DNA of 64,000 nucleotides, from the NCBI RefSeq assembly GCF_000478825.2, contig NZ_CP007542.1:496001-560000 (forward strand). The letters are read 5' to 3'. Source of the stretch: Synechocystis sp. PCC 6714 (GTDB lineage: Bacteria > Cyanobacteriota > Cyanobacteriia > Cyanobacteriales > Microcystaceae). Position 1 is the stretch's first letter; every line of letters starts with the position of its first letter. Below are positions 37,316-53,027 of this stretch, one piece after another. A program made the position numbers and the translations under genes. The notes beneath the pieces are model-generated. The model was not told the origin of the DNA, did no database searches, and saw nothing but the letters and a program-made list of their open reading frames with translations.

Positions 37316-38329
37316 TCATTTCAAATCAGCCAATTGAATGCGAGGGTCGGTGAATTTCAGTAATAAGTCCGCCAGGAGATTGCCCACAATCAGTAGGGTT
37401 GCCCCCATCATTAAACTACCCATCACTAGATAAAGATCCTGGGCTGTCACCGCTTGTAAAATCAGGCGGCCCAAACCGGGCCAATTGAAAAAGAATTCGG
37501 CAATGAACGCGCCACTGAGGAGACCGGCAAACTCAAAGCCCAGGATGGTGATTAGCGGATTGATAGCATTGCGGAGGGCGTGGACGTAAATAACTCGGTT
37601 TTCTGGCAGACCTTTAGCCCTCGCTGTTTGGATATAGTCTTGGCGCAACACATCTAACAGTTGTCCCCGCATTAGCCGTTGTAGCCCAGCAAAACTAGTA
37701 ATACTCAAGGCCAGGGTAGGTAAAATCATGTGCCAAGCAATGTCCCAGACTTTGTGGGGCCAGGAAAATTCGGCAAAATCAATGCTGGTCATGTCCCCCA
37801 CCGGCAATAGGGGAGAAACGGATTGAGCAAGGAATAACAGGAGCAAAGCTGTGATAAAGCTGGGAAATCCTTGGCCAATGTAGCTAATTACCCGCAAACC
37901 TCGATCTAACAATGTATTTTGCTGAACAGCACCCACAATACCCAAAGGAATGGCGATCGCCCAGGTGAGAATGATGGACGTGATGGCCAACAGTAGGGTG
38001 GCAGGAATCCGTTCCATTAATAAGGAGGCAACAGAACGGTTATAGACAAAACTTTCGCCAAAATTAAATCGGGTCACCACTTGGGTGAGCCAGCGCCAAT
38101 ATTGCACATACCAAGGTTGGTCTAGGCCAAATTGAACTTTTAGCTGTTGGATGGTTTCCGGGGAAATTTTCGGATTTTGCTGGAGGGTATCGAGGTAACT
38201 GCCGGGGGCCAACTGGATAATGGCAAAGCTTAATAGGGATGCCAGTAGTAAGGTAATCAGTCCTTCTATTAACCGCTGGACAACATAGGCCAAGTCGTCA
38301 TTTTGGAGCCAACGGAGGGGATTACGCAT
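37316..38329 (-). CDS. DppB-type ABC transporter permease
   Basis: Inner-membrane permease of the peptide/nickel (DppB/OppB) family, 337 residues with six helices. N-terminal LLASLLSFAIIQLAPGSYLD and the LKVQFGLDQPWYVQYWRWLT segment are standard. The EAA loop that contacts the ATPase reads RAKGLPENRVIYVHALRNAINPLIT. No partner permease (DppC), ATPase or substrate-binding protein lies nearby, so its partners must be elsewhere. It is divergent from hisS with 167 bases between. Confidence 0.92.
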   Translation of the reverse strand: MRNPLRWLQNDDLAYVVQRLIEGLITLLLASLLSFAIIQLAPGSYLDTLQQNPKISPETIQQLKVQFGLDQPWYVQYWRWLTQVVTRFNFGESFVYNRSVASLLMERIPATLLLAITSIILTWAIAIPLGIVGAVQQNTLLDRGLRVISYIGQGFPSFITALLLLFLAQSVSPLLPVGDMTSIDFAEFSWPHKVWDIAWHMILPTLALSITSFAGLQRLMRGQLLDVLRQDYIQTARAKGLPENRVIYVHALRNAINPLITILGFEFAGLLSGAFIAEFFFNWPGLGRLILQAVTAQDLYLVMGSLMMGATLLIVGNLLADLLLKFTDPRIQLADLK

Positions 38330-38496
38330 GGATTAATTGACCAAAAACTGCTGGTTAGATCCTGTCTAGGGATTGCTCCTAGCCAATATACCCTAAGGCT
38401 TTTATCGGTGCAGATGCCGATCGCCAAGGGGCCATGGGTCATCGGAATCCGCTAAGGTTAGGAACGTATTTTGTTTGACAGGAACTGAGCCGAACT

Positions 38497-39780
38497 ATGG
38501 GAGCTATCCAAGCCATTCGTGGAACCCGTGACATTGTGCCCCCGGAAACCAACTATTGGCAATGGGTAGAGGCGATCGCCAAACGCATTTTAGACCGGGC
38601 TTTATACCAAGAAATTCGCACCCCTATTTTTGAGCAGACCACTCTGTTTGAGCGGGGCATTGGGGAAGCCACCGACGTTGTGGGCAAAGAAATGTATAGC
38701 TTCACCGACCGGGGCGATCGCCCTATTACCCTAAGACCCGAAGGCACAGCGGGGGTGGTACGGGCTTATATTGAACAGAATTTACAGTCCGCTGGAGCAG
38801 TACAACGATTGTGGTATACCGGGCCTATGTTCCGCTACGAAAGACCCCAGGCCGGTCGGCAAAGACAATTCCATCAATTGGGGGTAGAAGTATTGGGCAG
38901 TGCCGATCCCAGGGCTGACGTGGAAGTGATTGCCTTAGGCACCGACATTCTCAAAGCCCTTGGTTTGAGTAACCTTTCCCTCGCCTTAAATTCCGTCGGT
39001 AATGGCGGCGATCGCCAAAGATACCGGGAAGCTTTGATCGCCTACTTAACCCCTTTCAAAGATGAACTAGATCCCGATTCCCAGGACCGGTTGGAGCGCA
39101 ATCCCCTGAGAATTTTGGACAGCAAAGCTAAGCGCACCCAGGAAATTGTCCAGGATGCCCCCAGCATTTTGGATCATCTCGGAGCGGATTCCCAACGGCA
39201 CTTTGACCAAGTACAACAATTACTGACGGACTTAGGCATTGCCTACCAACTTACCCCCACCCTGGTGCGGGGCTTGGATTACTACACCCACACTGCCTTC
39301 GAAATTCAATCCAGCGATCTGGGGGCCCAGGCCACCGTTTGCGGTGGCGGTCGTTACGATGGCCTAGTGGCGGAATTGGGCGGCCCCGTTACCCCTGCCG
39401 TGGGCTGGGCCATGGGATTGGAGCGTTTAATTATTCTTTTGCAACAAATGGCCACGCCTCCCATTGCTGGCCCGGATTTTTACCTTGTTTCCAAAGGAGA
39501 AAAAGCAGAACCCCAAGCCCTAATTTTGGCGCAACAATTACGCAACCAGGGATTATCCGTCGCTTTAGATCTCAGCGCCAGTGCCTTTGGTAAACAATTT
39601 AAGCGGGCTGATAAATCCGGGGCGATCGCCTGCTTAGTGTTGGGGGAAGGGGAAATGGCAACAGGCACAGTACAACTTAAATGGCTGGCCAGCAAAACCC
39701 AAGAAACAGTGCAGTTGGAGGATTTAATGGGGGACATTACGGAACTCAAACAACGTTTAGCGGGACATAGGGGAAAATAA
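38497..39780 (+). CDS. hisS: Histidyl-tRNA synthetase
   Basis: Class II aminoacyl-tRNA synthetase, 427 residues. Motif 2 is FRYERPQAGRQRQFHQLGVE, the His-specific loops are RGLDYYTHTAFE and GGGRYDGL, and motif 3 is AVGWAMGLERL. RPEGTAGVVRAY is in place. C-terminal anticodon-binding domain (LSVALDLSASAFGKQFKRADKSGA). The next gene follows by 34 bases. Confidence 0.97.
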   Translation: MGAIQAIRGTRDIVPPETNYWQWVEAIAKRILDRALYQEIRTPIFEQTTLFERGIGEATDVVGKEMYSFTDRGDRPITLRPEGTAGVVRAYIEQNLQSAGAVQRLWYTGPMFRYERPQAGRQRQFHQLGVEVLGSADPRADVEVIALGTDILKALGLSNLSLALNSVGNGGDRQRYREALIAYLTPFKDELDPDSQDRLERNPLRILDSKAKRTQEIVQDAPSILDHLGADSQRHFDQVQQLLTDLGIAYQLTPTLVRGLDYYTHTAFEIQSSDLGAQATVCGGGRYDGLVAELGGPVTPAVGWAMGLERLIILLQQMATPPIAGPDFYLVSKGEKAEPQALILAQQLRNQGLSVALDLSASAFGKQFKRADKSGAIACLVLGEGEMATGTVQLKWLASKTQETVQLEDLMGDITELKQRLAGHRGK

Positions 39781-39814
39781 CCCCACCTCACCTCTAACTT
39801 TTCTGTGACCTGCC

Positions 39815-40933
39815 ATGACCCCATGGACGATTTGGTTTAAAACCGCTGACAACCAAAGTTGGCAACCCCTGGATTCCTGCCGCTCTCTCCCCCTGGGCCA
39901 TTACCGTCTAGCGGCCCGTCTGGCAGTACCCCATAAGTATGTGCAATGGCGTTGGAAATTTTTTTCGGCCACCGGCAAAGTTGAAAACCACGATTTCCAG
40001 GGGCGCACCAACCAAGAAGGACTTATTTCCCTGTTGGATCTGCACACCGTCCAACCCGGCACCTGGCAACTGAATGCCCAGCCAGACTTATTTGATCAGC
40101 TTTGTGGAGAAACCTGGCAAATCCGTTTTCAATTCCAAATTGTTAGTCCTGCCATGGCTACGGTCACAGTACCGAAATTGAATGCTGAACCAGAGGAATT
40201 TGAGCCGGAGCAGGAAACAGAGGCAGCAAATAACGCCATTGTGCCCCATCCCATGCGTCCTATGGTGGTGCCAGAGCTTGATCCAGAGCCCGTCCCGGTG
40301 CTTCAGTGGCACAGAAAAACAAGGGTAAAATTAACTGAAAATGAAGCAGTAGAGTCTAGTAACTCTCTGGAAATAATAGGGGTAGAGGGAAATACAGAAA
40401 ACATAGAAAACAGAGTGGAGGAGAAAACTGTGGAATCGATGGCTACCACAGCCCCGGGCACTGAGAAGACGATGGAGGAAAATATGGACGATCAAATCCT
40501 TGAACCGGTGGTAACAATCGCCGCCAATGTCGAAGCAAGGGAAAAACAAGTAAAAGAAACAGTACAGGAAGAAATTCTAGAGCCGGTGGCGGCCATGGCC
40601 TCGGATGTTTTTGCAAAAAAAGAAGAAATACCAGAGGATCAACAGCCAGAAGCTTTGGTAGTAGCAAAGTCATCAGCTGATACTGATGCCGAAGACCAGT
40701 TAGAAAAATCAGAGCGTTTTAACCCTTTCCGTTCCATCAGCTACTCTGTGGAGCTAATTTATCCAGAATTGGAAAATCCCATCCAGGTGGACATCACGGT
40801 TATAGTGGACGAAAATCGCCGCCCGGCCAATCTGAATTTGCCCGATCCCCGCAGGATGATCAGTCCTTTGCATCGACGGCCCAACAAGTCCCGATCGCCT
40901 CTGCCCCCCAAATTAACGTCTACGGTGGATTAA
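39815..40933 (+). CDS. Hypothetical protein with acidic repeat linker
   Basis: 372 residues, no known family. Residues 1-110 are a compact Trp-rich domain (WTIWFKTADNQSWQPLDS, YVQWRWKFFSATGKVENHDFQG, PGTWQLNAQPD) that looks like a beta-sandwich. Residues 125-305 are Glu/Val-rich, low complexity, with two imperfect repeats (ILEPVVTIAANVEAREKQVKET and ILEPVAAMASDVFAKKEE). The C-terminus returns to an ordered segment (YSVELIYPELENPIQVDITVIVDENRRPANLNLPDPRRM) and a basic Pro-rich tail. No signal peptide. It probably acts as a scaffold with two ordered ends. It is likely co-transcribed with hisS. Confidence 0.75.
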   Translation: MTPWTIWFKTADNQSWQPLDSCRSLPLGHYRLAARLAVPHKYVQWRWKFFSATGKVENHDFQGRTNQEGLISLLDLHTVQPGTWQLNAQPDLFDQLCGETWQIRFQFQIVSPAMATVTVPKLNAEPEEFEPEQETEAANNAIVPHPMRPMVVPELDPEPVPVLQWHRKTRVKLTENEAVESSNSLEIIGVEGNTENIENRVEEKTVESMATTAPGTEKTMEENMDDQILEPVVTIAANVEAREKQVKETVQEEILEPVAAMASDVFAKKEEIPEDQQPEALVVAKSSADTDAEDQLEKSERFNPFRSISYSVELIYPELENPIQVDITVIVDENRRPANLNLPDPRRMISPLHRRPNKSRSPLPPKLTSTVD

Positions 40934-40982
40934 TTTCAATGCCAAATGGGGGAAATTGAGTTAGAGACTGGAATTGCCTGAC

Positions 40983-42005
40983 TCAAAAACAGATCCCTGT
41001 AATATTGCAGAAAACACCCTGAATTAGTGAATTGCCCCCAGACCGGTTGTAATAATCATCGTTATTAAGGTTACTATTGTACCGATTAGCTTCGGGACTA
41101 TTAACAATTTCATTCCTCACATTTTCAAAGGTACTGCCTGCGATGACGGCATTGCGATAACCCTGTAATCCTTGTGAGTCAGCGTTACGACCTAGGTATT
41201 CTTGGTAAACCACATCCAATGCTTGCTTGAAGTCTTGGCTATTAACCAAATCCCGGCGGGCTTGGGCTAGGGAATAATTAGAATTATTTACAAACTGATT
41301 ATAATTCCTTAACTCACTGGCACTGGAATTGCGTCCCAATACCTGGATATACATATCATTGAACTGCCGCTGATGTTCAGAATTATAATTGCCTTGGTTA
41401 TAGTTATCACGGTTATTATAATTGCGATTTCGAGCTTCGGTACTATTGCTAATCTCATCCTTAATATCAGCCAAGCTTCGACCATTAACAATTAAATTAC
41501 GGTAACTTACAAGGCTGTTATTATCAAGATTTTGTCCTAAATATTCCCGATAGAAATTATTAATGGATTGATAAAATTCTTCACTATTAATTAGGTTTTC
41601 ACGAACCTGTACCGAAGACCAACCTTGACTGTTAATAGTTTGGGTAAAGTCTCGGATTTCATTACTGGTGGCATTGCGTCCCAACACTTGCAGGAACAGA
41701 TTGTTAATTTCCGACTCACGATTATAGCGAATGTTAGACCGCCTATTGTTATTGGCTTGATAGCGGAAACTGCCATAGTTGGGGCAATTAATAACATTAT
41801 TGTTCCGTAGACAACTAATCTCAGTCGGGCGGGAATTATACCGGTGATTGTTATTGGTTTGATAGCGGAAACTGCCATAATCGGAACAATTAATTACATC
41901 ACTGTTCCTTACGCAGTTAATGGTTTCAGATTGCGCCATTGCCGGAGCTATGCTAGTCAGGGATAATAATAGGAGAGTAGCTGTAGATAAAGTTAAAGTT
42001 TTCAT
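40983..42005 (-). CDS. Exported DUF4214 protein with internal repeats
   Basis: 340 residues from the ATG at 42005, which begins a clear signal peptide (MKTLTLSTATLLLLSLTSIAPAMAQS). A longer open frame (to 42158) is not needed. Residues 25-95 contain two 34-residue repeats with pattern I-x-C-x-RN-x3-VINC-x2-YGSFRYQ-x-NNN, each with two cysteines. Two DUF4214-like units follow (LFLQVLGRNATSNEIRDF to EYLGQNLDNNSL, and MYIQVLGRNSSASELRNY to EYLGRNADSQGL), separated by an Asn-rich linker. DUF4214 occurs in secreted and S-layer/phycobilisome-linker-like proteins; role unknown. The sequence is Asn/Tyr rich. Confidence 0.82.
   Translation of the reverse strand: MKTLTLSTATLLLLSLTSIAPAMAQSETINCVRNSDVINCSDYGSFRYQTNNNHRYNSRPTEISCLRNNNVINCPNYGSFRYQANNNRRSNIRYNRESEINNLFLQVLGRNATSNEIRDFTQTINSQGWSSVQVRENLINSEEFYQSINNFYREYLGQNLDNNSLVSYRNLIVNGRSLADIKDEISNSTEARNRNYNNRDNYNQGNYNSEHQRQFNDMYIQVLGRNSSASELRNYNQFVNNSNYSLAQARRDLVNSQDFKQALDVVYQEYLGRNADSQGLQGYRNAVIAGSTFENVRNEIVNSPEANRYNSNLNNDDYYNRSGGNSLIQGVFCNITGICF
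41751..41950. repeat. Tandem 102-base direct repeat in the DUF4214 gene
   Basis: Two near-identical in-frame units with a period of 102 bases: the segment starting at 41751 recurs from 41853, sharing GATAGCGGAAACTGCCATA. They encode the two Cys-containing 34-residue repeats. Their closeness in DNA, not only in protein, suggests a recent duplication. Confidence 0.8.
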
Positions 42006-42161
42006 TGATAAAATACGAATTCCTATGTCTTGATCTTGACAAAGAAGTGGGTCATTTATCGTTGGAATTGTACAAATTGATTGACTACAGTGATAAATAT
42101 ATTTAGATGTTGAAAATATAGTCTCAATAATCCAGGGCAAAATAATAAATAATGCCAATCC

Positions 42162-43064
42162 CTAACCTAATTCCAAACAGGCCAGGCCGTAGATGTCTTC
42201 CAAGGGGAGTTGGGGCGGATTGCCCTTGTACATGCGTAAATTTAACAAGGCCAGTTCAAAGCCCCGTTCTTCCAATAGATAAATGGCATCTTGATTCACC
42301 TCTGGCACATCAATAAATACTGGCCCCTGGCGATCGCCGAGTAATACATCTAGCAAAGCTCCTGCTAGGGCGGTACTATCAGCCATCAAGGGACCCAACC
42401 GCCAGCCCTGGGGACTGCCATCATGGTCATCGGGCAATAAACATGGCCGAATGCGACCGTAGCCACAACAATCCCCTTGGCTATCTAGGATAACCATTAC
42501 TTTTCCTTCGGGGCGTTGTAACCATTCATGCAAAAACAATGGCCGGGGAGTGGCTTCGTGGCGGGCATCGTAGGCTTGCACTTTGGCTTCCATTAGTTCA
42601 TTCCCAGCCATGAGTTGATAGCCAGGGGGTAGATCTGGAGCAAAACTTGGCCGGACACAGGAACGGCGATCAGCAGGGGGTAAACGATAGCGGCGGGTGT
42701 AATAGGCGGGATGAAAGCCCCATTTTTGATAATCTTCCACCCTAGTTAAGGCCGCTTCCAGACCAACACAGCCCACGTCCTGCAAATGGTCGATCGCCGT
42801 TTGCCACAGAGCCACCCCAAAACCCCGACCTCGATATTCCGGCTGGACTAGAAACAGGCCAATAAAGCCGTAATTGTAGTCGTAACGAACCCCGGCAATG
42901 CAACCCACCGGCACTCCTTGCCATTCCCCTACCCACACCCCAGCGTTATCGGTGTCACAAAAAATCCCCACATCCCCTATGCCTGGACAAAAGCCTTCTT
43001 GCTGGGCCCAACGGGTTACCAACGGGCGATCGTCAACTTCCATGGGACGAATTAGGTAACTCAT
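42162..43064 (-). CDS. GNAT-family N-acetyltransferase
   Basis: 300 residues. The N-terminal GNAT domain (1-140) has the acetyl-CoA loop EYRGRGFGVALWQTA (residues 76-90) and the strand GFIGLFLVQP before it. The C-terminal half (170-300) is an Acetyltransf_18-like or second GNAT-like domain (GYGRIRPCLLPDD, VFIDVPEVNQDAIYLLEERGFEL). Substrate unknown. On the minus strand it appears to be the last gene of an ancestral ygiB-ygiC-diiron-GNAT operon. A remnant of the di-iron gene 3' end lies directly upstream, and a second copy of the first 13 codons lies at 45987-46025 (see junction repeats). Confidence 0.88.
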   Translation of the reverse strand: MSYLIRPMEVDDRPLVTRWAQQEGFCPGIGDVGIFCDTDNAGVWVGEWQGVPVGCIAGVRYDYNYGFIGLFLVQPEYRGRGFGVALWQTAIDHLQDVGCVGLEAALTRVEDYQKWGFHPAYYTRRYRLPPADRRSCVRPSFAPDLPPGYQLMAGNELMEAKVQAYDARHEATPRPLFLHEWLQRPEGKVMVILDSQGDCCGYGRIRPCLLPDDHDGSPQGWRLGPLMADSTALAGALLDVLLGDRQGPVFIDVPEVNQDAIYLLEERGFELALLNLRMYKGNPPQLPLEDIYGLACLELG

Positions 43065-43130
43065 AGATTAGGGCGAAACAAAGGAGGAATCAGTCAAGGA
43101 TTTTATAACATCGGTGCCAGGGCGATCGCC
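43024..43130. repeat. Junction repeat X, left copy
   Basis: Holds the first 13 codons of the GNAT gene, its start, and upstream of that a 3' fragment of a gene like the di-iron gene at 46031 (GDRPGTDVIKSL then a stop just before the GNAT ATG). The right copy is at 45987-46084 in the same orientation, roughly 80% identical with a gap of several bases. Similarity of the di-iron part ends exactly at the HIP1 site at 43121-43130. Confidence 0.85.
43066..43130 (-). pseudogene. 3' remnant of the di-iron protein gene
   Basis: Minus-strand translation GDRPGTDVIKSLTDSSFVSP then TAA, against GDRPSTAVIKSLTLVLP then TAA at the end of the complete gene at 46031. Only the last ~20 codons survive. The similarity stops at the HIP1 palindrome. 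Confidence 0.75.
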
Positions 43131-43161
43131 ATTATTGTGAGTTGTAATTTTTCGGCGATCG
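43119..43161. repeat. Repeat Y, left copy (bounds the RT island)
   Basis: A 43-base unit made of HIP1, about 23 spacer bases (ATTATTGTGAGTTGTAATTT type) and a second HIP1-like core. It recurs at 45953-45995 in the same orientation with two mismatches. The two copies lie at the two ends of the segment carrying the reverse transcriptase and Uma2 genes. Confidence 0.85.
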
Positions 43162-43389
43162 TCTACTACAAGATATTTATAATCATGGTGCATTCCCAAC
43201 AATCTATTAGCTGAGTAGGAGTAGGAGAAATTTCACCACAAGATCAGCGATCAAACTAAACTAATTTAAATTTTTATCCCTGTGCAATAAATCCAGAGAG
43301 GTTTTTGGGGATATAAAATATTGCTTCATGCTCACTAAAAAATATTTTCTGATGATATACTTCTACCGATACTTAAAACAGTGTTATCT
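43162..43389. other. AT-rich leader of the reverse transcriptase gene
   Basis: With the repeats before it, the gene-free stretch spans 43065-43389 (325 bases). A TATACT at about 43355 could be a -10 box, but no good -35 was found. No clear hairpin array or tRNA was recognised. Since some defence RTs use an adjacent non-coding RNA template, this stretch and the gap after the gene are candidates, though nothing in them proves it. Confidence 0.35.
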
Positions 43390-45030
43390 ATGTCACTCAC
43401 TAGATTTCTAACCCATGGTTATTTTCCATATGAGTTACCTCAATGCTTTTCTTCGAGTTCATATGGTCAGTTGATTGGCAATCTAAATAGTACAAGTGCT
43501 ATTCCGAATAGTTTGCTAAAACCAACAGTACCAGGTAGTAGTAATCGTTTTAGAACCGCACCTCTACTCAAACATAATTTAGCAAGAGTTAATAGATTTC
43601 GTCGAATTTTAGGTGTTCCTAATCCCATTCTCTACATGAATTTATGTAAAGAAATTACAGACAATTGGGAAGAGATTAATTCATTTATAAAAGGAAGCTC
43701 GCTCTCTTATACACAACCAGCTTTCACTAATAACGGAAATAGGGCTTTTAATTATAATTCTCTGCCTTCTAATCTTCCACAAATTAGGGCACATCATCGC
43801 AGTAATGGGAAATATCTTCTTGTAACGGATATACAACAATTTTATCCTTCTATCTATACACACTCTTTACCTTGGGCACTTCATACAAAAGATGTGGCAA
43901 AAAGTCAAAGAACAAACTACCAGTTAACTGGGAACCGACTGGATAGATGTGTTCGTAATATGCAAGATTCGCAAACTATGGGATTGCCATTAGGTCCTGA
44001 CTCTTCAAGAATATTGTCTGAAATGTTATTGACTGCTGTCGATATGGAATTACTCAAAGAATACCCTGATTTAAAAGGATTTCGAAGAATAGATGATTAT
44101 GAATTGACCTTTAGAACAAGAAGTGAGGCAGAGACAGCACTGGGCATTTTGCAGGGAATTTTGTCGGAATTTGAATTATCTCTTAATGAATCAAAAACAC
44201 AAATACTAGAGTTGCCTTTACCTTTAGAAGAGACATGGACATTTACATTTAAGAATTTTAACTTTGAAGCAAGATCTCCTTTGTCAATTATTCAAAATTT
44301 AACAAGCTATTTTGGTTTAGCTTTCGATTTAGCACCTAAGCATCCACAAAGCTCAGTTATTGGTTATGCCATATCTCGTATTAAGAATGAAGATTTTTCT
44401 AATAGGTTGGTCTGGAAAGTTTATCAGAATTTATTGATACAATCAATGATCGCTGAACCAGGAGCTATTCGATATGTCTTGTTTGAGCTTCAGAAATACA
44501 AGAAAAAATTTTCTCTTAGAATCGATCAAGACAAAATTCAGGATGCTCTAGAACAGATGATTCAGTCACATTACGCTTTAGGCCATGGGAGTGAAATTGC
44601 TTGGTCTATTTGGGCTACAATTATCCTAAACGTACAACTAAGCGAATTGTCATGCAATATAATTAGTCAAATTAATGAACCATTAGTCCCTTTGTTAGCT
44701 TTACATGCTGAGTCTTTAGGGTTAACTAAAATCGCTTTAGATCACACACATTGGTCTTCCTTAATGACTGAAGAAGAATTATGGGGAAATAACTGGCTAC
44801 TATGCTATGAAGCAAATGTCAAAAATTGGCTGCCATCTGTTGGAAATGTAGATCATGTTAATAATGATCCTGCATTTTCATTCCTCAAAGAAAACAATGT
44901 AGTATTTTATAATCTTAATGCAATTAGTATAGCTCATTCTCAATGGGAATCTCGTTTCTCCATTTCAGACCTTGTTGGTTATACTTCCTCTGATGAAGAA
45001 AATATGGGTGAGATGAATTCTGATTTTTAA
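43390..45030 (+). CDS. Stand-alone reverse transcriptase of the Abi/unknown-group (defence) type
   Basis: 546 residues from the ATG at 43390; a GTG three codons before (43381) is possible. RT motifs in order: motif A VTDIQQFYPSIYTHSLPWAL (catalytic Asp147), motif B QTMGLPLGPDSSRILSEM, motif C RRIDDYELTF (Asp235-Asp236, IDD in place of YADD), and LSLNESKTQI (263-272). The rest (about 290-546) is helical, with no maturase X domain, HNH, Cas1 or nitrilase, as in Abi-type RTs (AbiA, AbiK) and several DRT classes. The FYPSIYTHS form of motif A and the GPD-x-S form of motif B are also those of phage-defence RTs. No group II intron ribozyme or obvious retron msr/msd is seen. Base composition is much more A/T-rich than the neighbours, and the gene sits inside a repeat-bounded insertion. 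Defence function is inference; the exact class is not assigned. Confidence 0.88.
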   Translation: MSLTRFLTHGYFPYELPQCFSSSSYGQLIGNLNSTSAIPNSLLKPTVPGSSNRFRTAPLLKHNLARVNRFRRILGVPNPILYMNLCKEITDNWEEINSFIKGSSLSYTQPAFTNNGNRAFNYNSLPSNLPQIRAHHRSNGKYLLVTDIQQFYPSIYTHSLPWALHTKDVAKSQRTNYQLTGNRLDRCVRNMQDSQTMGLPLGPDSSRILSEMLLTAVDMELLKEYPDLKGFRRIDDYELTFRTRSEAETALGILQGILSEFELSLNESKTQILELPLPLEETWTFTFKNFNFEARSPLSIIQNLTSYFGLAFDLAPKHPQSSVIGYAISRIKNEDFSNRLVWKVYQNLLIQSMIAEPGAIRYVLFELQKYKKKFSLRIDQDKIQDALEQMIQSHYALGHGSEIAWSIWATIILNVQLSELSCNIISQINEPLVPLLALHAESLGLTKIALDHTHWSSLMTEEELWGNNWLLCYEANVKNWLPSVGNVDHVNNDPAFSFLKENNVVFYNLNAISIAHSQWESRFSISDLVGYTSSDEENMGEMNSDF

Positions 45031-45135
45031 CTAAGATCGTAATTTACAATAAATCATAAATTTTCAAAACTACACATGTTCAGATCGTGTAGTCAATGAA
45101 ATGTAACGCGCCATATTTTTAATGACAGTAATCAA

Positions 45136-45852
45136 TTAATCAAGAGTTTCTGGATCAATGCCCAACTCCCGCAGTTTTGCTACTAACTTTTCCGCTTTTT
45201 CTTCAGCTTGAATCACTTTTTCTTCTGGATTAGGTAACAGCTTTCCTTGAAGATCCCACCACCGTAACCAAGGCAATTCCATGTTTTGATAGGTTCCTTG
45301 CCAAATGCCTAGCGCAACTTTTAATTCTGGAATTTCATACTTTCCATAGGCGTTCGGATTCATTAATTCATAGTGGCTACCGACCAGGTAATATAGCTCA
45401 ACACTCGCCTTTTCCACCTCGTAGATCCCGTAATAAGCCGGACGAATAACCGTTTCGTAGATCCAAAATTTGCCAGTCCAAGGGGTGCGATCACGTTCCT
45501 CAGAACCATCACCAGAAACGAACTCTAAAACGATCTGCGGCGGGATGATTTCTTGCCATAACACATAGGAGCGTCGGCCCTTGCCATTGAGTAACGGCGG
45601 CACATTTGGCACATAAAACCAGTCTGGGGCTTCGGCTCCCCGCTGTGGTGGTTCGGTTAAACGCCAATAAATGCCGCTATCTTGACCGATGGTGTACTGT
45701 CCATCAGCATGAATTTGATCCAAGACTGGACGGATCGCACTGGTCAGCAAAATACTTTGGGGATGTTCCTGAAAATTCTTCACGAAAGTACCGTCTTCAC
45801 AAGGAAGCTGGGTGTGATCGGGCAGGGGCGTAAATGTTTCCTTGGCAAGCAT
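45136..45852 (-). CDS. Uma2-family (DUF820) endonuclease-like protein
   Basis: 238 residues of the Uma2/DUF820 family, a PD-(D/E)XK-like fold very abundant in cyanobacteria. Core: APDWFYVPNVPP (Asp), PQIVLEFVSGDG (E-x-x-S), then YYGIYEVEKASVELYYL. The C-terminal segment, LRWWDLQGKLLPNPEEKVIQAEEKAEKLVAKLRELGIDPE, is the usual coiled-coil tail. Role unknown; often near mobile DNA. It lies tail-to-tail with the RT gene (105 bases), inside the same repeat-bounded segment. Confidence 0.88.
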   Translation of the reverse strand: MLAKETFTPLPDHTQLPCEDGTFVKNFQEHPQSILLTSAIRPVLDQIHADGQYTIGQDSGIYWRLTEPPQRGAEAPDWFYVPNVPPLLNGKGRRSYVLWQEIIPPQIVLEFVSGDGSEERDRTPWTGKFWIYETVIRPAYYGIYEVEKASVELYYLVGSHYELMNPNAYGKYEIPELKVALGIWQGTYQNMELPWLRWWDLQGKLLPNPEEKVIQAEEKAEKLVAKLRELGIDPETLD

Positions 45853-45952
45853 GGGACTATGCTCCTTGGTGGTTGCCTAATGTTCCTTGATCCTAGCGAA
45901 TTAATGTCTTTGGCGTAGAAAATTTAAGAGCCTTTCAAATTTGGCAAGAATC

Positions 45953-45995
45953 AGGGCGATCGCCATTATTGTGAGTTGTGATTTTTAGGCGATCG
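45953..45995. repeat. Repeat Y, right copy
   Basis: Same 43-base HIP1-spacer-HIP1 unit as at 43119-43161 (two differences), same orientation. It lies immediately inside the right junction repeat. Confidence 0.85.
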
Positions 45996-46084
45996 CCAAC
46001 TTCCATGGGAGGAATTAAGTAACTCATAGATTAGGGCAAAACAAGAGTTAAGGATTTAATCACAGCAGTGCTAGGGCGATCGCC
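45987..46084. repeat. Junction repeat X, right copy, with a GNAT 5' fragment
   Basis: Contains, on the minus strand, the true 3' end of the di-iron gene, then after TAATCT an ATG followed by 12 more codons (MSYLIPPMEVGDR) matching the GNAT start MSYLIRPMEVDDR. The GNAT similarity ends at the HIP1 site at 45988-45997, where repeat Y begins. This is therefore a cut-off second copy of the GNAT 5' end. Confidence 0.85.
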
Positions 46085-46840
46085 AAGGTTTAGCTCAGCC
46101 AAAATTAACTGGACAATAACCTCGCTAAAATAGTCGGGAAAACGGTGCATTTCCTGGGCATGGTCTAGCAAAAAGGTGTGGTAATAATGCCCCAGGGATT
46201 TTTCTAGTTTGATGAGGCTCTGGAAAAAATCTGGTAATTCTCGGAGACGGTGGGGATAATTATGCTTGAGAATGTTTAAAAAATGGCGAAAATGACTGCC
46301 TTCATCCTGCACCAAATGTTGAGCGACTCTGGCAAAGCTTTTACCAAAGGGTTGGTAATATTCCCGTAGATCTCGACGATAGGAAAACATAGACCCCAAC
46401 TCGTCAAATACCAGGGTACTAACAATGGTAAACTCGTCTTGTAAAACCCAAGCAATAGGTTCTAAGCTAGGCGATCGTTGCTTAAAATTGGTCTCTATGG
46501 CGGTAACACTAAGTCCAGATAAACAACTATAAATGTGTCGTAAAGCTTGATAATGCTTTTGTTCATCTCCCAACCACAGGGGCAATAAAGCCATCAAATC
46601 TGGGGACAATTCCCCTGAACGAGATAGGAGATAATTGTAAAGAAATTGAGCATCACCCTCTGAGTAAACGTCCTGACTGAGTAGAACGCAAAAATTACTT
46701 TTAAGGGCAGGATTTAAACTCTCTAAAATACTTGGGGATAGTTGATAATTCAGAAGTGCTGAATGATAATAAAGTTCACTATGGTTAACTTTTGTTGCTT
46801 TGCTTAGGGCTTTACCAATGTCTAATGAGTATGTTTTCAT
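46031..46840 (-). CDS. Putative ferritin-like di-iron protein
   Basis: 269 residues, no named family recalled. The sequence shows the class I di-iron carboxylate ligand pattern: Glu61 (YSEGDAQ), Glu93-x2-His96 (DEQKHYQ), Glu136 or Glu147 (LQDEFT, FDELGS), and Glu180-x2-His183 (QDEGSHFRHF). The helix spacing of 32 to 33 residues within each half fits a four-helix bundle oxidase or desaturase-like enzyme. The role is therefore inferred as an iron-dependent oxidase or oxygenase. On the minus strand it lies just upstream of the original GNAT position. A truncated paralogue is encoded at 50096, directly after a glutathionylspermidine-synthase-like gene, so its ancestral partners were probably that ATP-grasp ligase and GNAT. 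Confidence 0.72.
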   Translation of the reverse strand: MKTYSLDIGKALSKATKVNHSELYYHSALLNYQLSPSILESLNPALKSNFCVLLSQDVYSEGDAQFLYNYLLSRSGELSPDLMALLPLWLGDEQKHYQALRHIYSCLSGLSVTAIETNFKQRSPSLEPIAWVLQDEFTIVSTLVFDELGSMFSYRRDLREYYQPFGKSFARVAQHLVQDEGSHFRHFLNILKHNYPHRLRELPDFFQSLIKLEKSLGHYYHTFLLDHAQEMHRFPDYFSEVIVQLILAELNLGDRPSTAVIKSLTLVLP

Positions 46841-46920
46841 TTTTGTTTTTTGATATATGACGTTCTATATCAACTGTTTATACCCAACTTCTGCAAAAAA
46901 CGCCATAAAGATAATATACT

Positions 46921-48318
46921 TTATTTAATGCGAGCATCATAAAACCCTCTAAACCCTTTCCACACCTCCCCACCTTGTCTAACATTATTGTTGGCTAAAC
47001 ATACCCAGTATTCGTTCATTTCATCATTGTTAGCATATTTTGGCAAAGGGAATTTTTCCATAGATTGCAAAAAAGATAATTGCTCTGAAGATAGCATTGG
47101 ACATTTTTTTTGGTATTCAATTTGAGATAAATCCTGCATTGTTAATTTTATATTTAATTCCACAACTTCACCAAATTTTAAAATTATGGGGCTAAAGACA
47201 ACACCCATCCAGATAAATGTCAATAAAAAGTTTACTTTAGTGAAAAACTTTGAAAGTTTAAATGCGAGCCAAACAAAACCCAAAGGAACAAGAGCCATGG
47301 ATGCGACCCATTGTCTAGTCATTATCCAATAATTACTCCTGTAAGAAATATAAGATATAAAAACTGATATTATTAGAGCGAAAGTTATTAGAAGAATGGG
47401 AGTTGTAATCTCTTTAATATAAATTTGCTTATATTTTGGTAAATAAAGAACAACTAAAACAGAAATAAGACTTATGAAAATCACCGGATATATTAGCTTT
47501 TGTAAAAATTCAAAGTGAGTTAATTCAAAAAATACTTGTAGCAGTTTATCTATTTTTATCCATTCAAAAGGATCGAATGATGTTTTAGCAGTGGGGTTTC
47601 CCCTTAACCAAGTTAGTGATCCAACTAAAATAAATAACCCTGATCCAAATAAACATAAAGGAACATTAATATGCTCTAAAATAGATTTAATGGAAATTTC
47701 TTGTTCTGTTTCAATTAGTTTTTGTAAATATGTAAATAGTATTATTCCTAACCAATAAAGGCAAAAATATGGATGGAAAAGAATTCCCATTGAAATGGAA
47801 AGTATTCCAAAAATTTTAAAAATTAATTTAGATCTTACATCCAAAAGAGTACTGTAATAAGCAAGACTACAAACAACAGAAGAAACTAATGGCATATATG
47901 GTCTTGCTTCGCCAACAAAGTACATTAACTGAGTCTGAGAAGATAAGGCAACAATGCCCATAAATTGCCACAGAAATGGCATCTCCCAAAGACGAAAAAG
48001 ATAAAGTACTGCTAACATCATCGCTAAACCAGAAAATAGACTAGGAAATCTTAGCCAAAAAGTATTAGCTCCAAATATTTGCATTAACCAGTAGTCAATA
48101 AGCATATAAATACCTGTTTGGCCGTGATTAATTCCTAATATAGACTGGCGGATGACTTGCCAAGATTCTCCGGTTGTTTGGTATGCTCCCAAAGCAAAAT
48201 GTAAAAATTCATCTATCCAAAGTGGTCTGCCAAAAGATGAATACAGAGCCAGACAAAATAAACAAAAAACGAATAAAGTAACATAATAAATATTGAAATT
48301 AGTTAGTTTAACTCTCAT
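46921..48318 (-). CDS. Membrane glycosyltransferase of the GT39/GT83 type
   Basis: 465 residues with around ten membrane helices. The first loop motif PLWIDEFLHFALGAY carries the Asp-Glu pair expected of polyprenyl-phosphate-sugar-dependent transferases (PMT/ArnT-like, GT-C fold). The C-terminal ~70 residues are soluble. It probably transfers a sugar from a lipid carrier outside the membrane. Last gene of a three-gene A/T-rich cluster with a methyltransferase and a GT2 enzyme that could make the lipid-linked donor. Acceptor unknown. Confidence 0.82.
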   Translation of the reverse strand: MRVKLTNFNIYYVTLFVFCLFCLALYSSFGRPLWIDEFLHFALGAYQTTGESWQVIRQSILGINHGQTGIYMLIDYWLMQIFGANTFWLRFPSLFSGLAMMLAVLYLFRLWEMPFLWQFMGIVALSSQTQLMYFVGEARPYMPLVSSVVCSLAYYSTLLDVRSKLIFKIFGILSISMGILFHPYFCLYWLGIILFTYLQKLIETEQEISIKSILEHINVPLCLFGSGLFILVGSLTWLRGNPTAKTSFDPFEWIKIDKLLQVFFELTHFEFLQKLIYPVIFISLISVLVVLYLPKYKQIYIKEITTPILLITFALIISVFISYISYRSNYWIMTRQWVASMALVPLGFVWLAFKLSKFFTKVNFLLTFIWMGVVFSPIILKFGEVVELNIKLTMQDLSQIEYQKKCPMLSSEQLSFLQSMEKFPLPKYANNDEMNEYWVCLANNNVRQGGEVWKGFRGFYDARIK

Positions 48319-48337
48319 GACTTTTTGTTTAATGTAA

Positions 48338-49033
48338 TTAAAATTTTTTCCATACAGCTAAAATAGACTTGCCAAATTTATACTTCAATATGGGATCAAA
48401 GACTTTTGAAACTGGAATCATCCATGTATCCCATAGTTTGACTTGTTGTAAAGTTGGTATGCTTTGTTTTAAAAAATGATTACTTGCCGAGGCAATTAAT
48501 CCAACAGAATCAATATATTTTAAGTTGACTAACCTAAGTTCTGGTGGTGTTAATCGTTTGATCGTTTGACGATTATATCGGCGGAAGTGACCTACGGATT
48601 TATCAAAAGGGGAAAATAACCACTGGTGGGCTGGAGCTAATACAACTAAAAAGCCCCCTGATCTCAAATTTGCCGTTGCTCGCTTAATTTCAGCAAAGTC
48701 ATCTTCAATATGTTCTAAGACATCAATATAAATGATTGAATCAAAACAATAGTCAAATGAAATATTAGCTAGTGAACCATGTTTAATTTCACAAATTTGT
48801 GGAAGATTTTTTTCTGATTTAAGCATATCAATCATCAATTCATCTGGCTCTAAGCAGACCCACTTTTGTTGGTTCTGACTGCAAAGTATTTTAGTTGTAC
48901 TTCCAATGCCAGCCCCTACTTCTAATACATTTTCACCTAAATATGAGTAAATTATTCTATGATAATAGTTTTTCCAATTTCTGGCTAATCTAAATAATTC
49001 TAGCTCAGAGCCAACGTAGCTATAATTTTCCAT
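48338..49033 (-). CDS. Class I SAM-dependent methyltransferase
   Basis: 231 residues. Motif I VLEVGAGIGSTTKILC, acidic loop CLEPDELM, motif II/III DSIIYIDVLEHIEDDFAEI and GGFLVVLAPAHQWLF. The family is close to methyltransferases found in surface-polysaccharide loci (Methyltransf_11/23 type). It lies 3 bases from the GT2 gene end and 19 bases from the GT39 gene start, so one transcript is likely. Substrate unknown; a sugar or lipid-linked glycan is likely. Confidence 0.87.
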   Translation of the reverse strand: MENYSYVGSELELFRLARNWKNYYHRIIYSYLGENVLEVGAGIGSTTKILCSQNQQKWVCLEPDELMIDMLKSEKNLPQICEIKHGSLANISFDYCFDSIIYIDVLEHIEDDFAEIKRATANLRSGGFLVVLAPAHQWLFSPFDKSVGHFRRYNRQTIKRLTPPELRLVNLKYIDSVGLIASASNHFLKQSIPTLQQVKLWDTWMIPVSKVFDPILKYKFGKSILAVWKKF

Positions 49034-49036
49034 AGG

Positions 49037-50044
49037 TTAGAAAATATCCTCTACTGATAATATAAAATAAGAATAATCTCTACTTGGTATAAAACCGATA
49101 TTATTGCGTCCTACTAAAACTAAAAAGATAAATGAAAGCGCAATCATAAATACTTGTAAAATAAGAGATAATAAGATAGTTACTATGTAAGAAGTCCATC
49201 CAGGTATAGCAAGGTTTGTGGTTAAGCGGATTCCCACAACTATGAGTATGGCTATTATCATCAAACAGATCATCATACAGGAAACTATTAATAAACGAAC
49301 TCCAACTATTTCACCATGAACAGAGATTGCACTTAAACCATGGGTAATAAGCGATGTAAAGTTCATTTGAGATTTACCGTAATAACGAGTCCCTCGACGG
49401 GTATTTATATCATCATTCATCAACTTTGATTTTAGAACACCTGCAGCATAATGATTCCACAATTCGGAAACAACTACTAATCTATGGAGCAGATTAAATG
49501 GAATGATGCTAAAGTTGCCAACCCTAATATCAAAACCAGTTAATAAATGGTAGGTTGTATAATATGCGCGATAGAATAATTTAAACAGAAATGATTCTGA
49601 TCTCTGGCTTCGGCGGGCAAAAATAATTTTTCTGTAGTCGTTTTCCACACATTTTTGAATTAGAGCAATACAATCTTGAGGTGTATCCTCGCCATCTGCA
49701 TCCATAACTAAGACCATATCTCCTGAGTAAAAAGCTTCAGTATAGGCTAACCCGATAGTTATCGCGCGTTGATGACCGATATTCCTTTTGAGTCGAAGAA
49801 TTTTAAAATTTTTGATTGCTCGCAAACCCATATTGTCAAATAGTCTTTGTTCTTCTGGGAAATTTGACGCATCGTCGACTACTAATATACTTGCCAAAAT
49901 TTTGTAACGAGTTAGTAGAGTATCTAAATCTTCTAATAGTTTTCTGACAGATTTCCAATCATTAAAAACCGGAATAATAAAAATAACCTCTTGAGAGTTA
50001 TCTTCTGTTGAGATAAAATTATCATGAAATTCTATGTTAAACAT
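49037..50044 (-). CDS. GT2 glycosyltransferase (polyprenyl-phosphate sugar synthase type)
   Basis: 335 residues. GT-A domain with IIPVFNDWKSVRKLLEDL, LVVDDASNF and the DxD site VMDADGEDTP; two C-terminal membrane helices follow (VRLLIVSCMMICLMIIAILIVVG and a second near 290-315), as in DPM1/GtrB-type enzymes that load a sugar on undecaprenyl phosphate. It would then feed the GT39-type transferase of the cluster. First gene of the cluster; the truncated di-iron gene lies 51 bases upstream. Confidence 0.87.
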   Translation of the reverse strand: MFNIEFHDNFISTEDNSQEVIFIIPVFNDWKSVRKLLEDLDTLLTRYKILASILVVDDASNFPEEQRLFDNMGLRAIKNFKILRLKRNIGHQRAITIGLAYTEAFYSGDMVLVMDADGEDTPQDCIALIQKCVENDYRKIIFARRSQRSESFLFKLFYRAYYTTYHLLTGFDIRVGNFSIIPFNLLHRLVVVSELWNHYAAGVLKSKLMNDDINTRRGTRYYGKSQMNFTSLITHGLSAISVHGEIVGVRLLIVSCMMICLMIIAILIVVGIRLTTNLAIPGWTSYIVTILLSLILQVFMIALSFIFLVLVGRNNIGFIPSRDYSYFILSVEDIF

Positions 50045-50095
50045 AAACTTTATTGAACTTATTTATTTGATTAATCAAGACCAAGAAAAGAACTC

Positions 50096-50677
50096 CTATA
50101 ATTTCTGAATAATTTTTCTATAGCTTCCCAGCCGATGGTGTTGAATAGGTTCCTTCTCTGTGTTAGTTGATTGTTGTTGAATGATGAATTTTGCTGACTT
50201 TTTTAAGATTTTTTCTGAAACTTTAGTTGAGTTACGCCTATTTGCAACCAAATGATCTGGTGTATATTTAATCGATTTTTTTAATATTTTCAATTTTTTC
50301 AATCCTGGCGATCGCCGATGAAAATCTTCATCCATAGCGACAAAATCTAGCCCGGACAAACAACGATAAACCCGCCGCAGAGCTTGATAATGTTTTTGTT
50401 CATCTCCCAGCCATCGGGGTAATAAAGCTAAAAAATCTGGGGATAATTCCTGTGAATGAGATAATAAATAATCAGATAAAAATTGAGCATCCCCTTCAGA
50501 ATAAACATCTCGACTTAGTAAAATACAAAAATTATCTTTTAACTGAGCTTGCCCACCATTAAAAGTATTTATCGGTAGTTGATAATCCCTGGTAAATATT
50601 TGGTCCACATCCCAATCATTTAAGCAAATTTTTTGGCTGTGATTTATTGGATTATTGTCCAAATCAATAATTTTCAT
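50096..50677 (-). pseudogene. 3'-truncated paralogue of the ferritin-like di-iron gene
   Basis: 193 residues from the ATG at 50677. Colinear with the complete protein (46031-46840) through residue ~124: shared DNFCILLSRDVYSEGDAQFL, SPDFLALLPRWLGDEQKHYQAL and RRSPG. Glu61 and ExxH at 93-96 are kept. After the RRSPG codons, which are formed by a HIP1 site (50307-50316), the sequence changes completely to a Lys/Ser-rich tail and ends, so the second half of the iron site is missing. It probably does not bind a di-iron centre. It lies 36 bases after the glutathionylspermidine-synthase-like gene and 51 bases before the inserted glycosyltransferase cluster. Confidence 0.78.
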
Positions 50678-50713
50678 AATCAATCACTTATCCTAAGCTT
50701 TAACACAGATTAT

Positions 50714-52057
50714 TTAACCAATTGATAAAAATTCTTCTGCCACGATATGGGGAATAATCAAACAATGACGACCTGTAATTTGAGAAGTATCTCCCCGTAA
50801 AATAATGCCAGCCGCCGTATCATCAATAACCCAACTCCCCACCATGTAGTGATAGTCAAAGGCCTGGGGCAGTTCAATATATTCTTGGATAATAAAACCC
50901 TCTTCACCATAACCATAGGTAGGCCGTTTTTCCACTGCTCCGGCCCCCAACTCAATGGAAACACCAATGCCTTCCATACCTAACAAAGGTTTACGAACGT
51001 GTAAACCCTGCAATAGTAAACGGGTTGCTTCGAGGGAAATATCGCTCTCAAAATAAGTGGGCAGGAGATATTGAGCATACTCACTATCTTTAAACCGTTG
51101 CCAAATTAAAGCCATCGCCCCTTTGTTAGATAAAATTTGTTTCCATAAAGGTTCAATTACTTTTGTATCTCCCACGGCTAGGCGTTGGGCTAACGCCTCA
51201 GTGCAGCCAGCATTGGCCATATCATTTTGCAAATCTGACCAGTCATACATTTTCCATAAAATTGGAATTCTTTCGTTAGCATGGTCAATGAAATAACCAT
51301 CTTCATCTAAACCCAAACCCCTTTGAGTTAATTGACCCCGATCATTTTCTAAACCCCTTAGATAAACCAATTGGGTGTAAACATTTTCATCCACCTCATC
51401 GTGGAGAATTTGGATTAATTGCATTGCCATTTCACTATCTTCTTCTAGTTGTTCATCTACCAGAAAGGAAATGCCTGTGCGGAGTAAATCATATTCTTCA
51501 TAAATTCTGCGCCATTGCCCCGCCGTTCTTTCCCAATATTCATTAAACTGACTAGCATTGGCCGGTAAAGCATAGGCCCCTTGATTGTGGTTGCGTTGGT
51601 AGTCCACTAACCAATTCCATTGGTAAACCGTTTCCGCTCCCAACAGTGGCGTTTCCCCATTAATTTCAATTAATTTAATCTGACCATCTTCGGTGACCAC
51701 TAGATCAAAACGGGTAGCTAAACTTAAATCCTCCACCGGGTCGGTGCGATGCCAACTATTTTTCAGGGCAGGCCAATATTCAGGGCGAATTTTTAGCTGG
51801 GCCAATCTTGCGTCAACGGCAGAGTCATCATCCTCATCAAAAAACCAGTCCAGAAATTCCACACACATTTGCCATAGTTTTTCACTAGCAATGGCGATCG
51901 CCGTTTCTTCTTGGGGGGTGAATTGGATGGCAAAGGGTTGGGGTAGGGCTTCCACCCAATATTTTTGGGCTGGATCACTGAGCACATCAGCTTGGTAAGC
52001 ATTATCCTGAATATGTTGGCGCCAGCGGGGACGACGGCTAATTTTTATCGGTTGCAT
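50714..52057 (-). CDS. Glutathionylspermidine synthase-family ATP-grasp protein (YgiC-like)
   Basis: 447 residues of the GSP_synth family: an ATP-grasp amide ligase related to the C-terminal half of glutathionylspermidine synthase and to E. coli YgiC/YjfC. Family landmarks: TRFDLVVTEDGQIKLIEINGETPLLGAE (metal/ATP), ILWKMYDWSDLQND, HVRKPLLGMEGIGVSIE, EEGFIIQEYIELP and the C-terminal GRHCLIIPHIVAEEFLS. It probably joins a carboxylate to an amine; the substrates are not known for YgiC. The ATG overlaps the stop of the YgiB-like gene by one base (TAATG), so the two are coupled, as ygiB-ygiC are in E. coli. Confidence 0.92.
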   Translation of the reverse strand: MQPIKISRRPRWRQHIQDNAYQADVLSDPAQKYWVEALPQPFAIQFTPQEETAIAIASEKLWQMCVEFLDWFFDEDDDSAVDARLAQLKIRPEYWPALKNSWHRTDPVEDLSLATRFDLVVTEDGQIKLIEINGETPLLGAETVYQWNWLVDYQRNHNQGAYALPANASQFNEYWERTAGQWRRIYEEYDLLRTGISFLVDEQLEEDSEMAMQLIQILHDEVDENVYTQLVYLRGLENDRGQLTQRGLGLDEDGYFIDHANERIPILWKMYDWSDLQNDMANAGCTEALAQRLAVGDTKVIEPLWKQILSNKGAMALIWQRFKDSEYAQYLLPTYFESDISLEATRLLLQGLHVRKPLLGMEGIGVSIELGAGAVEKRPTYGYGEEGFIIQEYIELPQAFDYHYMVGSWVIDDTAAGIILRGDTSQITGRHCLIIPHIVAEEFLSIG

Positions 52058-52806
52058 TATTTACCTCCCCGGCCAGTGCCCTTAAAAGTAGAACCAAAAC
52101 CCTTATTGCTACTGCGGCCTGAAATAGTGCCCTTCGCGGCGGTGCCCGATGGCCTAGGGGGAGCGGGGGCAGTGACAGCTTTGGAAGTGGAAACTTTGCC
52201 CGTGGTAGTGCGGGGCACACTAACGCCATTGGGGGTAATTAACTGATCCGGATTTGTCCCCCGATACACAATGGATGGTTGCAACACCCGCCGTTGTACC
52301 CCGCCAGAGTAGATGTAGGTGTAATTACTGCCGTAGGGATAAAAGTAAGCTCCGCCAAAAATCGGACGATAACCGCTGGTGTGGTAGCCACTGGGGGTAG
52401 GCTCACAAATTACCCCATCATTTTGACAATCGGCTCGACTACCATAAACCGGGGCATTCCGTTGGTGTTCCTCCTGGGCCGCTTTCATTTGGGCTTCGCA
52501 ATCTTCGGGCCGAATGGGAGGAGGTGTGGGGGCGTTGGTCAATTTGCCCGCTTTATGGGCTTCCGTCAGGGCTTTATACTCATTGGCCTGATTGGCCATA
52601 TCCTTTTTGCATTCCGCCACGCTGGTGTAGTAAAGGGCTTCAATTTTTTCTTTACTTTCAGCAGCGCCACCCTGGTTGGTTTTGGGATTATTGTCTTTAC
52701 AACTGGTGCTTACCATGGCCAACACCGCGACCATCGCTAGATATTGCCTAACCTGTTTACGATAAATGGGCCGAGAAATGTTATCGGGGAAATGATTTGG
52801 TTCCAT
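52057..52806 (-). CDS. YgiB-like (DUF1190) lipoprotein-like protein
   Basis: 249 residues. A hydrophobic segment (YLAMVAVLAMVSTSCKDN) ends in a Cys preceded by VSTS, resembling a lipobox-type cleavage site. Two Cys-containing segments (SVAECKKDM, DCEAQMKAA; SRADCQNDG, ICEPTPSG) and a Tyr/Gly-rich region (GGAYFYPYGSNYTYIYSGG) follow; the C-terminus is Ser/Gly/Thr rich. The pattern of paired Cys, QMKAAQ and a glycine-rich end matches DUF1190/YgiB. The YgiC-like ligase gene follows immediately. This is the first gene of the ancestral operon. Confidence 0.82.
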   Translation of the reverse strand: MEPNHFPDNISRPIYRKQVRQYLAMVAVLAMVSTSCKDNNPKTNQGGAAESKEKIEALYYTSVAECKKDMANQANEYKALTEAHKAGKLTNAPTPPPIRPEDCEAQMKAAQEEHQRNAPVYGSRADCQNDGVICEPTPSGYHTSGYRPIFGGAYFYPYGSNYTYIYSGGVQRRVLQPSIVYRGTNPDQLITPNGVSVPRTTTGKVSTSKAVTAPAPPRPSGTAAKGTISGRSSNKGFGSTFKGTGRGGK

Positions 52807-53027
52807 GGCGATCGCCGGGTTAGGCAGTAATGATGGAGTTATTGTATTGAGATTTTCTGGGGATAAACTAATCGGTAAAAATTATTTACGAAAGAATCAC
52901 AAAGATTGACTAATTTCAGCGCCATTGGTGCCAAATACGAGTTTTGAATAGGGTTGATAGGGGTCGGGGATTGTTAAGCTAGGGAAATATGGACTGCTAA
53001 ATTGTCATTCAATCTTGAGAAAACACC

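Follow-up and report, generated by a model that had tools for sequence, protein, structure and literature searches.

A gene in a 64,000-nucleotide stretch of the Synechocystis sp. PCC 6714 chromosome (hereafter the window) encodes a reverse transcriptase (RT) that almost certainly belongs to the DRT6 family of class 1 UG/Abi RTs. The assignment rests on a UG-type profile, a tree and the fold of a predicted structure, and it places the protein in an already described anti-phage family rather than a new class. The enzyme has an RT-like domain with three catalytic Asp residues followed by a helical domain, groups on the DRT6 side, lacks a conserved partner gene or RNA and is variably present among genomes. 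It is likely to be a single-gene phage-defence system, housed in a variable cyanobacterial chromosomal slot and acting by a mechanism of the type published for DRT4 and DRT6. The features of the gene are:

43390–45030, forward strand: DRT6-family reverse transcriptase gene, 546 amino acids (ORF, UG-type profile, tree, predicted fold)
43828–43866, forward strand: motif A DIQQFYPSIYTHS, with catalytic D147; all 86 aligned RTs have Y156
43981–44007, forward strand: motif B GLPLGPDSS, residues 198–206
44086–44097, forward strand: R233-I-D235-D236, with Arg at a position usually held by Tyr or Phe in relatives
44233–44979, forward strand: helical half, residues 282–530, alpha-Rep-like domain (model, Foldseek)
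44980–45027, forward strand: acidic C-terminal tail, residues 531–546, with the candidate primer Tyr531 and Phe as last residue (pLDDT below 50)

Active site, fold and family of the reverse transcriptase

The frame runs through 546 intact codons from the ATG at 43390 to 45030; a start at the in-frame GTG at 43381 would lengthen the protein by three residues, and the ATG agrees with the starts chosen for relatives. An initial annotation, made from the letters of the DNA, had described the gene as AT-rich and its RT motifs as complete (Asp147, then RIDD at 235-236), and both descriptions hold: the gene has a GC content of 34.5%, compared with 47.2% in the window, and the motifs lie where they were placed. 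These motifs are not a chance resemblance, because Pfam RVT_1 scores 38.9 bits (cut-off 29.6), a PADLOC DRT profile matches at 9.4e-188 and the Asp residues are conserved across the family. A promoter and terminator scan gave nothing above chance, and the octamer GCGATCGC, known as HIP1, has 62 copies in the window, in keeping with its cyanobacterial origin.

Conservation was assessed in an alignment of 86 rows, comprising RTs of at least 120 bits and at least 400 amino acids among the 112 best matches; three entries duplicating the window gene or another row were left out, and two rows that are not on the DRT6 side (L015, L030) and three repeats or near-repeats are included. D147 is kept in 86 of 86 rows and D235-D236 in 85, and the window RT carries the whole triad together with all 33 columns of at least 95% conservation. 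One DRT6 relative from a Gemmatimonadetes MAG (L033) reads MWDE in place of the xxDD found elsewhere, with Glu as the second catalytic Asp.

The most unusual feature of the active site is residue 233, the Y of YxDD, which is Tyr in 55 rows, Phe in 16, Ser in three, His, Ala, Ile and Leu in two each, and Arg, Met, Val and Gln in one each. Tyr or Phe thus occupies this position in 71 of 86 RTs, and Arg occurs in the window RT alone. AbiK Tyr245, two residues ahead of the catalytic Asp247, is reported to stack on the new DNA (PMC9508834), and on our own reading of the sequences it would correspond to residue 233. The loss of the aromatic residue, unique as Arg and matched by Ser in the nearest relative, together with a changed tail, could mark a DRT6 copy that is decaying or has weakened catalysis. 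We regard such decay as unlikely, given the intact frame and the retained Asp residues and conserved columns. Moreover, in a set of 77 DRT6 rows (the 86 without the two non-DRT6 rows, the three that repeat or nearly repeat others, one masked row and three truncated ones) residue 233 is non-aromatic in 12, His being counted as aromatic, with at least seven changes on the tree; aromatic loss therefore recurs in the DRT6 family.

Among PADLOC models, the window RT scores 623 bits on PDLC02177 ('Drt4'), 558 on PDLC03748 ('Drt6', across residues 2–537), 508 on PDLC02179 ('Drt4') and 281 on PDLC03752 ('Drt4'), against 146 for AbiK and 120 for Abi-P2, so that the Abi families are not the best profile. 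We take DRT6 to be UG12 and PDLC03752 to be the UG15 model. The latter assumption is supported by the behaviour of that model: a UG15-like RT (L030), whose nearest PDB chains are UG15/DRT4 at E about 1e-152, scores 751 on PDLC02180, 570 on PDLC03752 and 290 on the Drt6 model, while 13 other DRT6-side RTs that were scanned score 455–598 on Drt6 and 207–306 on PDLC03752.

Taken by its top label, the window RT would be a DRT4 (UG15) enzyme, and UG15/DRT4 structures do come second among its fold matches. This identity is highly improbable, being disfavoured by the curated NCBIfam Drt4 cut-off, which is missed (251.3 against 450 bits), and by the behaviour of the PADLOC models: in 11 of the 13 DRT6-side RTs the better of PDLC02177 and PDLC02179 lies above the Drt6 score or at most 20 bits off (the exceptions, L028 and L029, score lower there), and L030 favours PDLC02180 and PDLC03752 instead. 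In the tree, L030, a single UG15-like row on a long branch, falls outside the starred group that holds the window RT. The initial annotation had proposed a candidate phage-defence RT of Abi/UG type and left open which class it belonged to, or whether the class was new; the phylogeny and PADLOC comparison it suggested place the protein in DRT6, with the Drt6 score of 558 set against 281 on PDLC03752 despite the 'Drt4' label at the top.

Clustering with group II intron or retron RTs, named in the same annotation as contrary evidence, was not found. The group II maturase profile reaches 39.9 of the 300 bits required, and the sole matching retron model 25.4 of 235; Rfam has no match for either, although Rfam need not cover all retron RNAs.

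A single-protein search of genome and viral contig collections returned no relative, and an alignment-based search (A1) of genome contigs returned 339, the best 80 of which were retained. These 80 span Cyanobacteriota, Pseudomonadota, Bacteroidota, Bacillota and others, and the closest among them is an RT of Stenomitos frigidus (L032, 56% identity). In a tree of 89 rows, built by a quick method with SH-aLRT support only, with long branches for L028, L029 and L030 and with no experimentally tested DRT6 sequence among its rows, the window RT is the sister of the Stenomitos RT (100) within the starred group of 39 rows (99), and so clusters with DRT6-side RTs, 13 of which were scanned and carry the Drt6 scores given above. 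L030 branches off at a basal fork that is not resolved and lies outside both this group and one of 71 rows (86) that also contains the window RT. The literature search named no cyanobacterial DRT among the matches listed. A second RT gene is present in the same genome outside the window (L112, G000:C1:715845-716321; RVT_1, 58 bits).

An AlphaFold2 model built on 47 sequences (mean pLDDT 90.3, pTM 0.90) shows an RT-like part to about residue 280 and helices from 282 to 529, the layout of a DRT6 enzyme; residues 530–546 fall below a pLDDT of 50. The helical C-terminal half that had been read from the sequence is thereby borne out, and the catalytic fold, whose loss in modelling would have counted against the annotation, is retained. 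Among 148 PDB matches at E of at most 0.001, the best Foldseek match is 9wy8, 'hexameric DRT6' (E 3.3e-32, TM 0.86/0.95), which is also the nearest PDB sequence (E 8.5e-67). UG15/DRT4 structures (9l9s, 9vdo) follow at TM about 0.75, AbiK at 0.59–0.63 and Abi-P2 at 0.55–0.60; group II RTs reach at most 0.35 among the 50 rows listed.

A lone gene in a variable chromosomal slot

The RT gene lies between a GNAT gene and a Uma2-family gene, in a slot with these elements:

43118–43167, no strand: GNAT-side copy of a direct repeat that bounds the insert; congener G003, whose site is empty, has one copy
43168–45118, no strand: segment with the RT, missing in G003 and G004, the two congeners with the slot
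45136–45852, reverse strand: Uma2-family gene (Pfam), also in congener G004, there without the RT
45952–46001, no strand: second copy of this direct repeat, beyond the opposite end of the insert, with 92% identity

Two observations on this slot are new here: one congener has nothing in it, and another carries an AAA ATPase gene there. In G003, the GNAT gene and a gene matching window positions 46031–46840 lie about 140 bp apart with neither RT nor Uma2, and a site of about 45–50 bp that is single there stands on both sides of the insert in the window's genome (G000). In G004, the same Uma2 gene (93% DNA identity) is accompanied by the ATPase gene in the place of the RT (L126:5456-7754; AAA_21 above cut-off, PtuA-like by PADLOC), apparently broken since it is divided into two ORFs. 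In G001 the sole counterpart is a GNAT relative at 38%, and in G002 there is none. From the slot contents of the congeners and the flanking repeats it follows that the segment 43168–45118 behaved as one unit in its gain, loss or exchange; the repeats are compatible with a target duplication and equally with recombination between such sites. By BLAST, with 40 of 312 candidates scored, the slot repeat was found in three places, all at the RT locus. The bounded insertion that had been proposed for RT and Uma2 together is thus upheld as a variable slot with repeats, but not as a fixed pair, given that in G004 the Uma2 gene stands beside another gene.

A second AT-rich insert (46748–50307), missing from G003 and G004, lies between two copies of one gene (46031–46840 and the shorter 50096–50683). 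By eye it contains glycosyltransferase, methyltransferase and membrane-protein genes, one of which was scanned, with no Pfam match.

The initial annotation had also reported no intron, retron or CRISPR partner, and searches agree: Rfam gave 0 matches in the window at gathering scores, hence neither an intron ribozyme nor msr/msd, either of which would have spoken against it. A CRISPR association was rejected, with no CRISPR-like array in 38000–53000. The one direct-repeat family in that interval has two copies, within another gene; two 86-nt direct repeats (80%) are found at 41734–41921, inside a DUF4214 gene (40983–42158).

An RNA encoded next to the gene was sought by comparing flanks in 53 pairs of relatives at 60–97% identity, 42 of which have 250 nt on all flanks. 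The coding part matches in 42 of 42 pairs, and a flank match of at least 25 nt is absent upstream in 33, downstream in 34 and on both sides in 29; 13 pairs do share some flank. Of the 22 pairs that are at least 80% identical, 14 have no match on either flank, and the flanks of the window and Stenomitos genes show no match beyond chance. A conserved adjacent ncRNA was rejected on the 29 pairs sharing neither flank and the unmatched window and Stenomitos flanks. A conserved partner gene was likewise rejected, as the largest families among 421 neighbouring ORFs of relatives occur at five loci each. By Rfam, neighbours and flanks the system is therefore taken to be a single gene, although a lineage-specific RNA may exist.

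Some neighbourhoods of relatives recur on a smaller scale. One pair of genes recurs downstream in three cyanobacterial relatives (L046, L052, L055); in L046 this pair gives weak PADLOC matches of metallo-beta-lactamase type and clear E2-ThiF-JAB matches. PADLOC run on 10 of the 421 neighbour proteins gave one strong match (E1-E2/JAB), one weak (LmuA, RTasMBL) and eight proteins without a match.

The defence role of the window copy is a prediction, and the genes directly beside it, GNAT and Uma2, have no proven part in defence (Uma2 is a putative restriction endonuclease by Pfam and matches nothing in PADLOC at 1e-30), so a housekeeping or retroelement RT without a defence role has to be weighed. 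We give that reading very little probability, given the patchy presence of the gene (one of five genus genomes, the window's own), the absence of an Rfam match, and the three relatives that adjoin an E1-E2-JAB-like gene and five others that, by eye, lie near an HsdM-methylase-like gene. Across a phylum sample of 386 genomes including its own, 18 have a match at E of at most 0.001; most of these cover mainly the RT core, and matches above 240 bits that extend into the helical half occur in five, its own included.

The C-terminal tail and a candidate priming residue

Beyond Tyr507 the DRT6 tail is variable and acidic, with Asp and Glu making up 27% of its residues in a divergent set of 57 rows (below 70% mutual identity). 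Tyr is the last residue in 21 of 57, against a mean of 2.5 and a maximum of 10 in 2000 shuffles, and Tyr or Phe in 31 (shuffled mean 4.4). A Tyr is found among the last six residues in 34 of 57 (13.7 in shuffles) and among the last 12 in 43 (24.7). None of the 2000 shuffles, which ignore kinship, reached any of the observed counts. Among the 77 rows the last residue is Tyr in 28 and Phe in 12, with at least 13 changes of terminal Tyr on the tree; in the comparison set of neighbouring ORFs, which includes a few RT pieces, 10 of 421 end in Tyr. Any tail Tyr at all is present in 49 of 57 divergent members and lacking in eight. In the window RT the last Tyr is Tyr531, 15 residues before the end, in a tail that the model does not place.

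Priming residues of related enzymes are reported at several sites: Tyr666 in the tail 622–667 of DRT3b (PMC13174585), Tyr496/Tyr498 of a C-terminal loop in DRT9 (PMC12483538, PMC12489045), Tyr44 in AbiK and Tyr61 in Abi-P2 (PMC9508834), Tyr298/Tyr303 in AbiA (PMC11077055) and Ser402 in DRT1 (PMC13275509). The excess of tail Tyr residues, taken with the priming sites of DRT3b and DRT9, leads us to propose tail priming for DRT6. A priming Tyr of the AbiK type was rejected, because no column at window residues 18–79 is strongly conserved as Tyr: leaving out columns that are gapped in the window RT, the highest Tyr count is 29 of 86 rows, at residue 62, where the window RT has His. A Tyr at the very end does not have to serve as primer, as three rows that group with an RT of Abi-P2 profile (L016) also end in Tyr. 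It is thus a tentative proposal, possible but somewhat short of probable, that DRT6 primes from a Tyr on its disordered C-terminal tail, as do DRT3b and DRT9, and not from an AbiK-like N-terminal loop; the window enzyme would be a variant with Tyr531 as primer, an acidic extension and Arg for the YxDD aromatic.

Acidic residues followed by a final Phe resemble the C-terminal tip motif of SSB. The window tail ends DEENMGEMNSDF, and the termini of the host's two SSBs read NNYPDEF and TDDIPF, so that a tail ending in Asp-Phe could instead mimic the SSB tip and dock host or phage partners of SSB, for example exonucleases. Such mimicry appears very unlikely as the function of the tail: a stricter SSB-like tip, although found, is limited to three of 86 rows, the nearest relative lacks such an acidic tip, and the last residue is more often Tyr than Phe. 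Three DRT6 relatives (L070, L076, L083) end DDLPF, EDLPFI and DDIPY, and the tail of an Abi-type RT on an E. faecium plasmid (L128) ends FDDFNDYPF, which is SSB-tip-like.

Proposed mechanism and comparison with known systems

DRT4 and DRT6 are reported to make self-primed, untemplated single-stranded DNA that becomes toxic under protection by a phage protein (PMC13213688, PMC13314766), ORF55 being the phage DNA-binding protein in the DRT4 study (PMC13213688, PMC13314766, reviews). A 2026 review describes DRT6 as a single-gene system whose product chemistry is less resolved than that of DRT4 (PMC13213688). By analogy, the window RT would probably assemble as a hexamer, as inferred from DRT4, DRT6 and other class 1 enzymes, and add nucleotides without a template onto one of its own side chains, most likely Tyr531 on the disordered tail. 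The single-stranded product would normally be cleared by host exonucleases; during infection, a phage DNA-binding protein may shield its 3' ends, and the accumulating DNA would then halt growth before the phage matures. We consider this sequence of events, including toxicity on 3'-end protection and priming at Tyr531, rather probable as a whole; the non-aromatic residue 233, the non-terminal position of Tyr531 and the variation of priming sites among relatives count against it.

The window RT provides a cyanobacterial case of DRT6 in a visible swap slot, and the family-wide result on the tail makes the initiation of DNA synthesis by DRT6 accessible to a concrete and inexpensive test. It also suggests that C-terminal Tyr priming may be common to untemplated (DRT3b) and RNA-templated (DRT9) RTs and to DRT6. 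The swap slot and the tail Tyr are the parts worth following up.

Compared with known systems, AbiK and Abi-P2 share an RT-like and a helical domain and, as the likely mechanism, untemplated self-primed synthesis, but their folds are more distant (TM 0.55–0.63) and their N-terminal Tyr44 and Tyr61 have no strongly conserved counterpart in DRT6. DRT4/UG15 (9l9s, 9vdo, 21ou) has the same architecture at TM about 0.75 and probably the same mechanism; it differs in sequence (E 7e-30, with the best stretch stopping at residue 352), and its curated cut-off is missed. The Stenomitos RT, at 56% identity, has the tail motif LVGY in common with the window RT but ends two residues past the Tyr of that motif, without the acidic extension, and reads SVDD where the window has RIDD. 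DRT6 itself (9wy8), although 29% identical in the structural alignment and reading FRYVDD in place of FRRIDD, matches over the full-length fold (TM 0.86/0.95), with an RT and a helical domain in what the review describes as a single-gene system.
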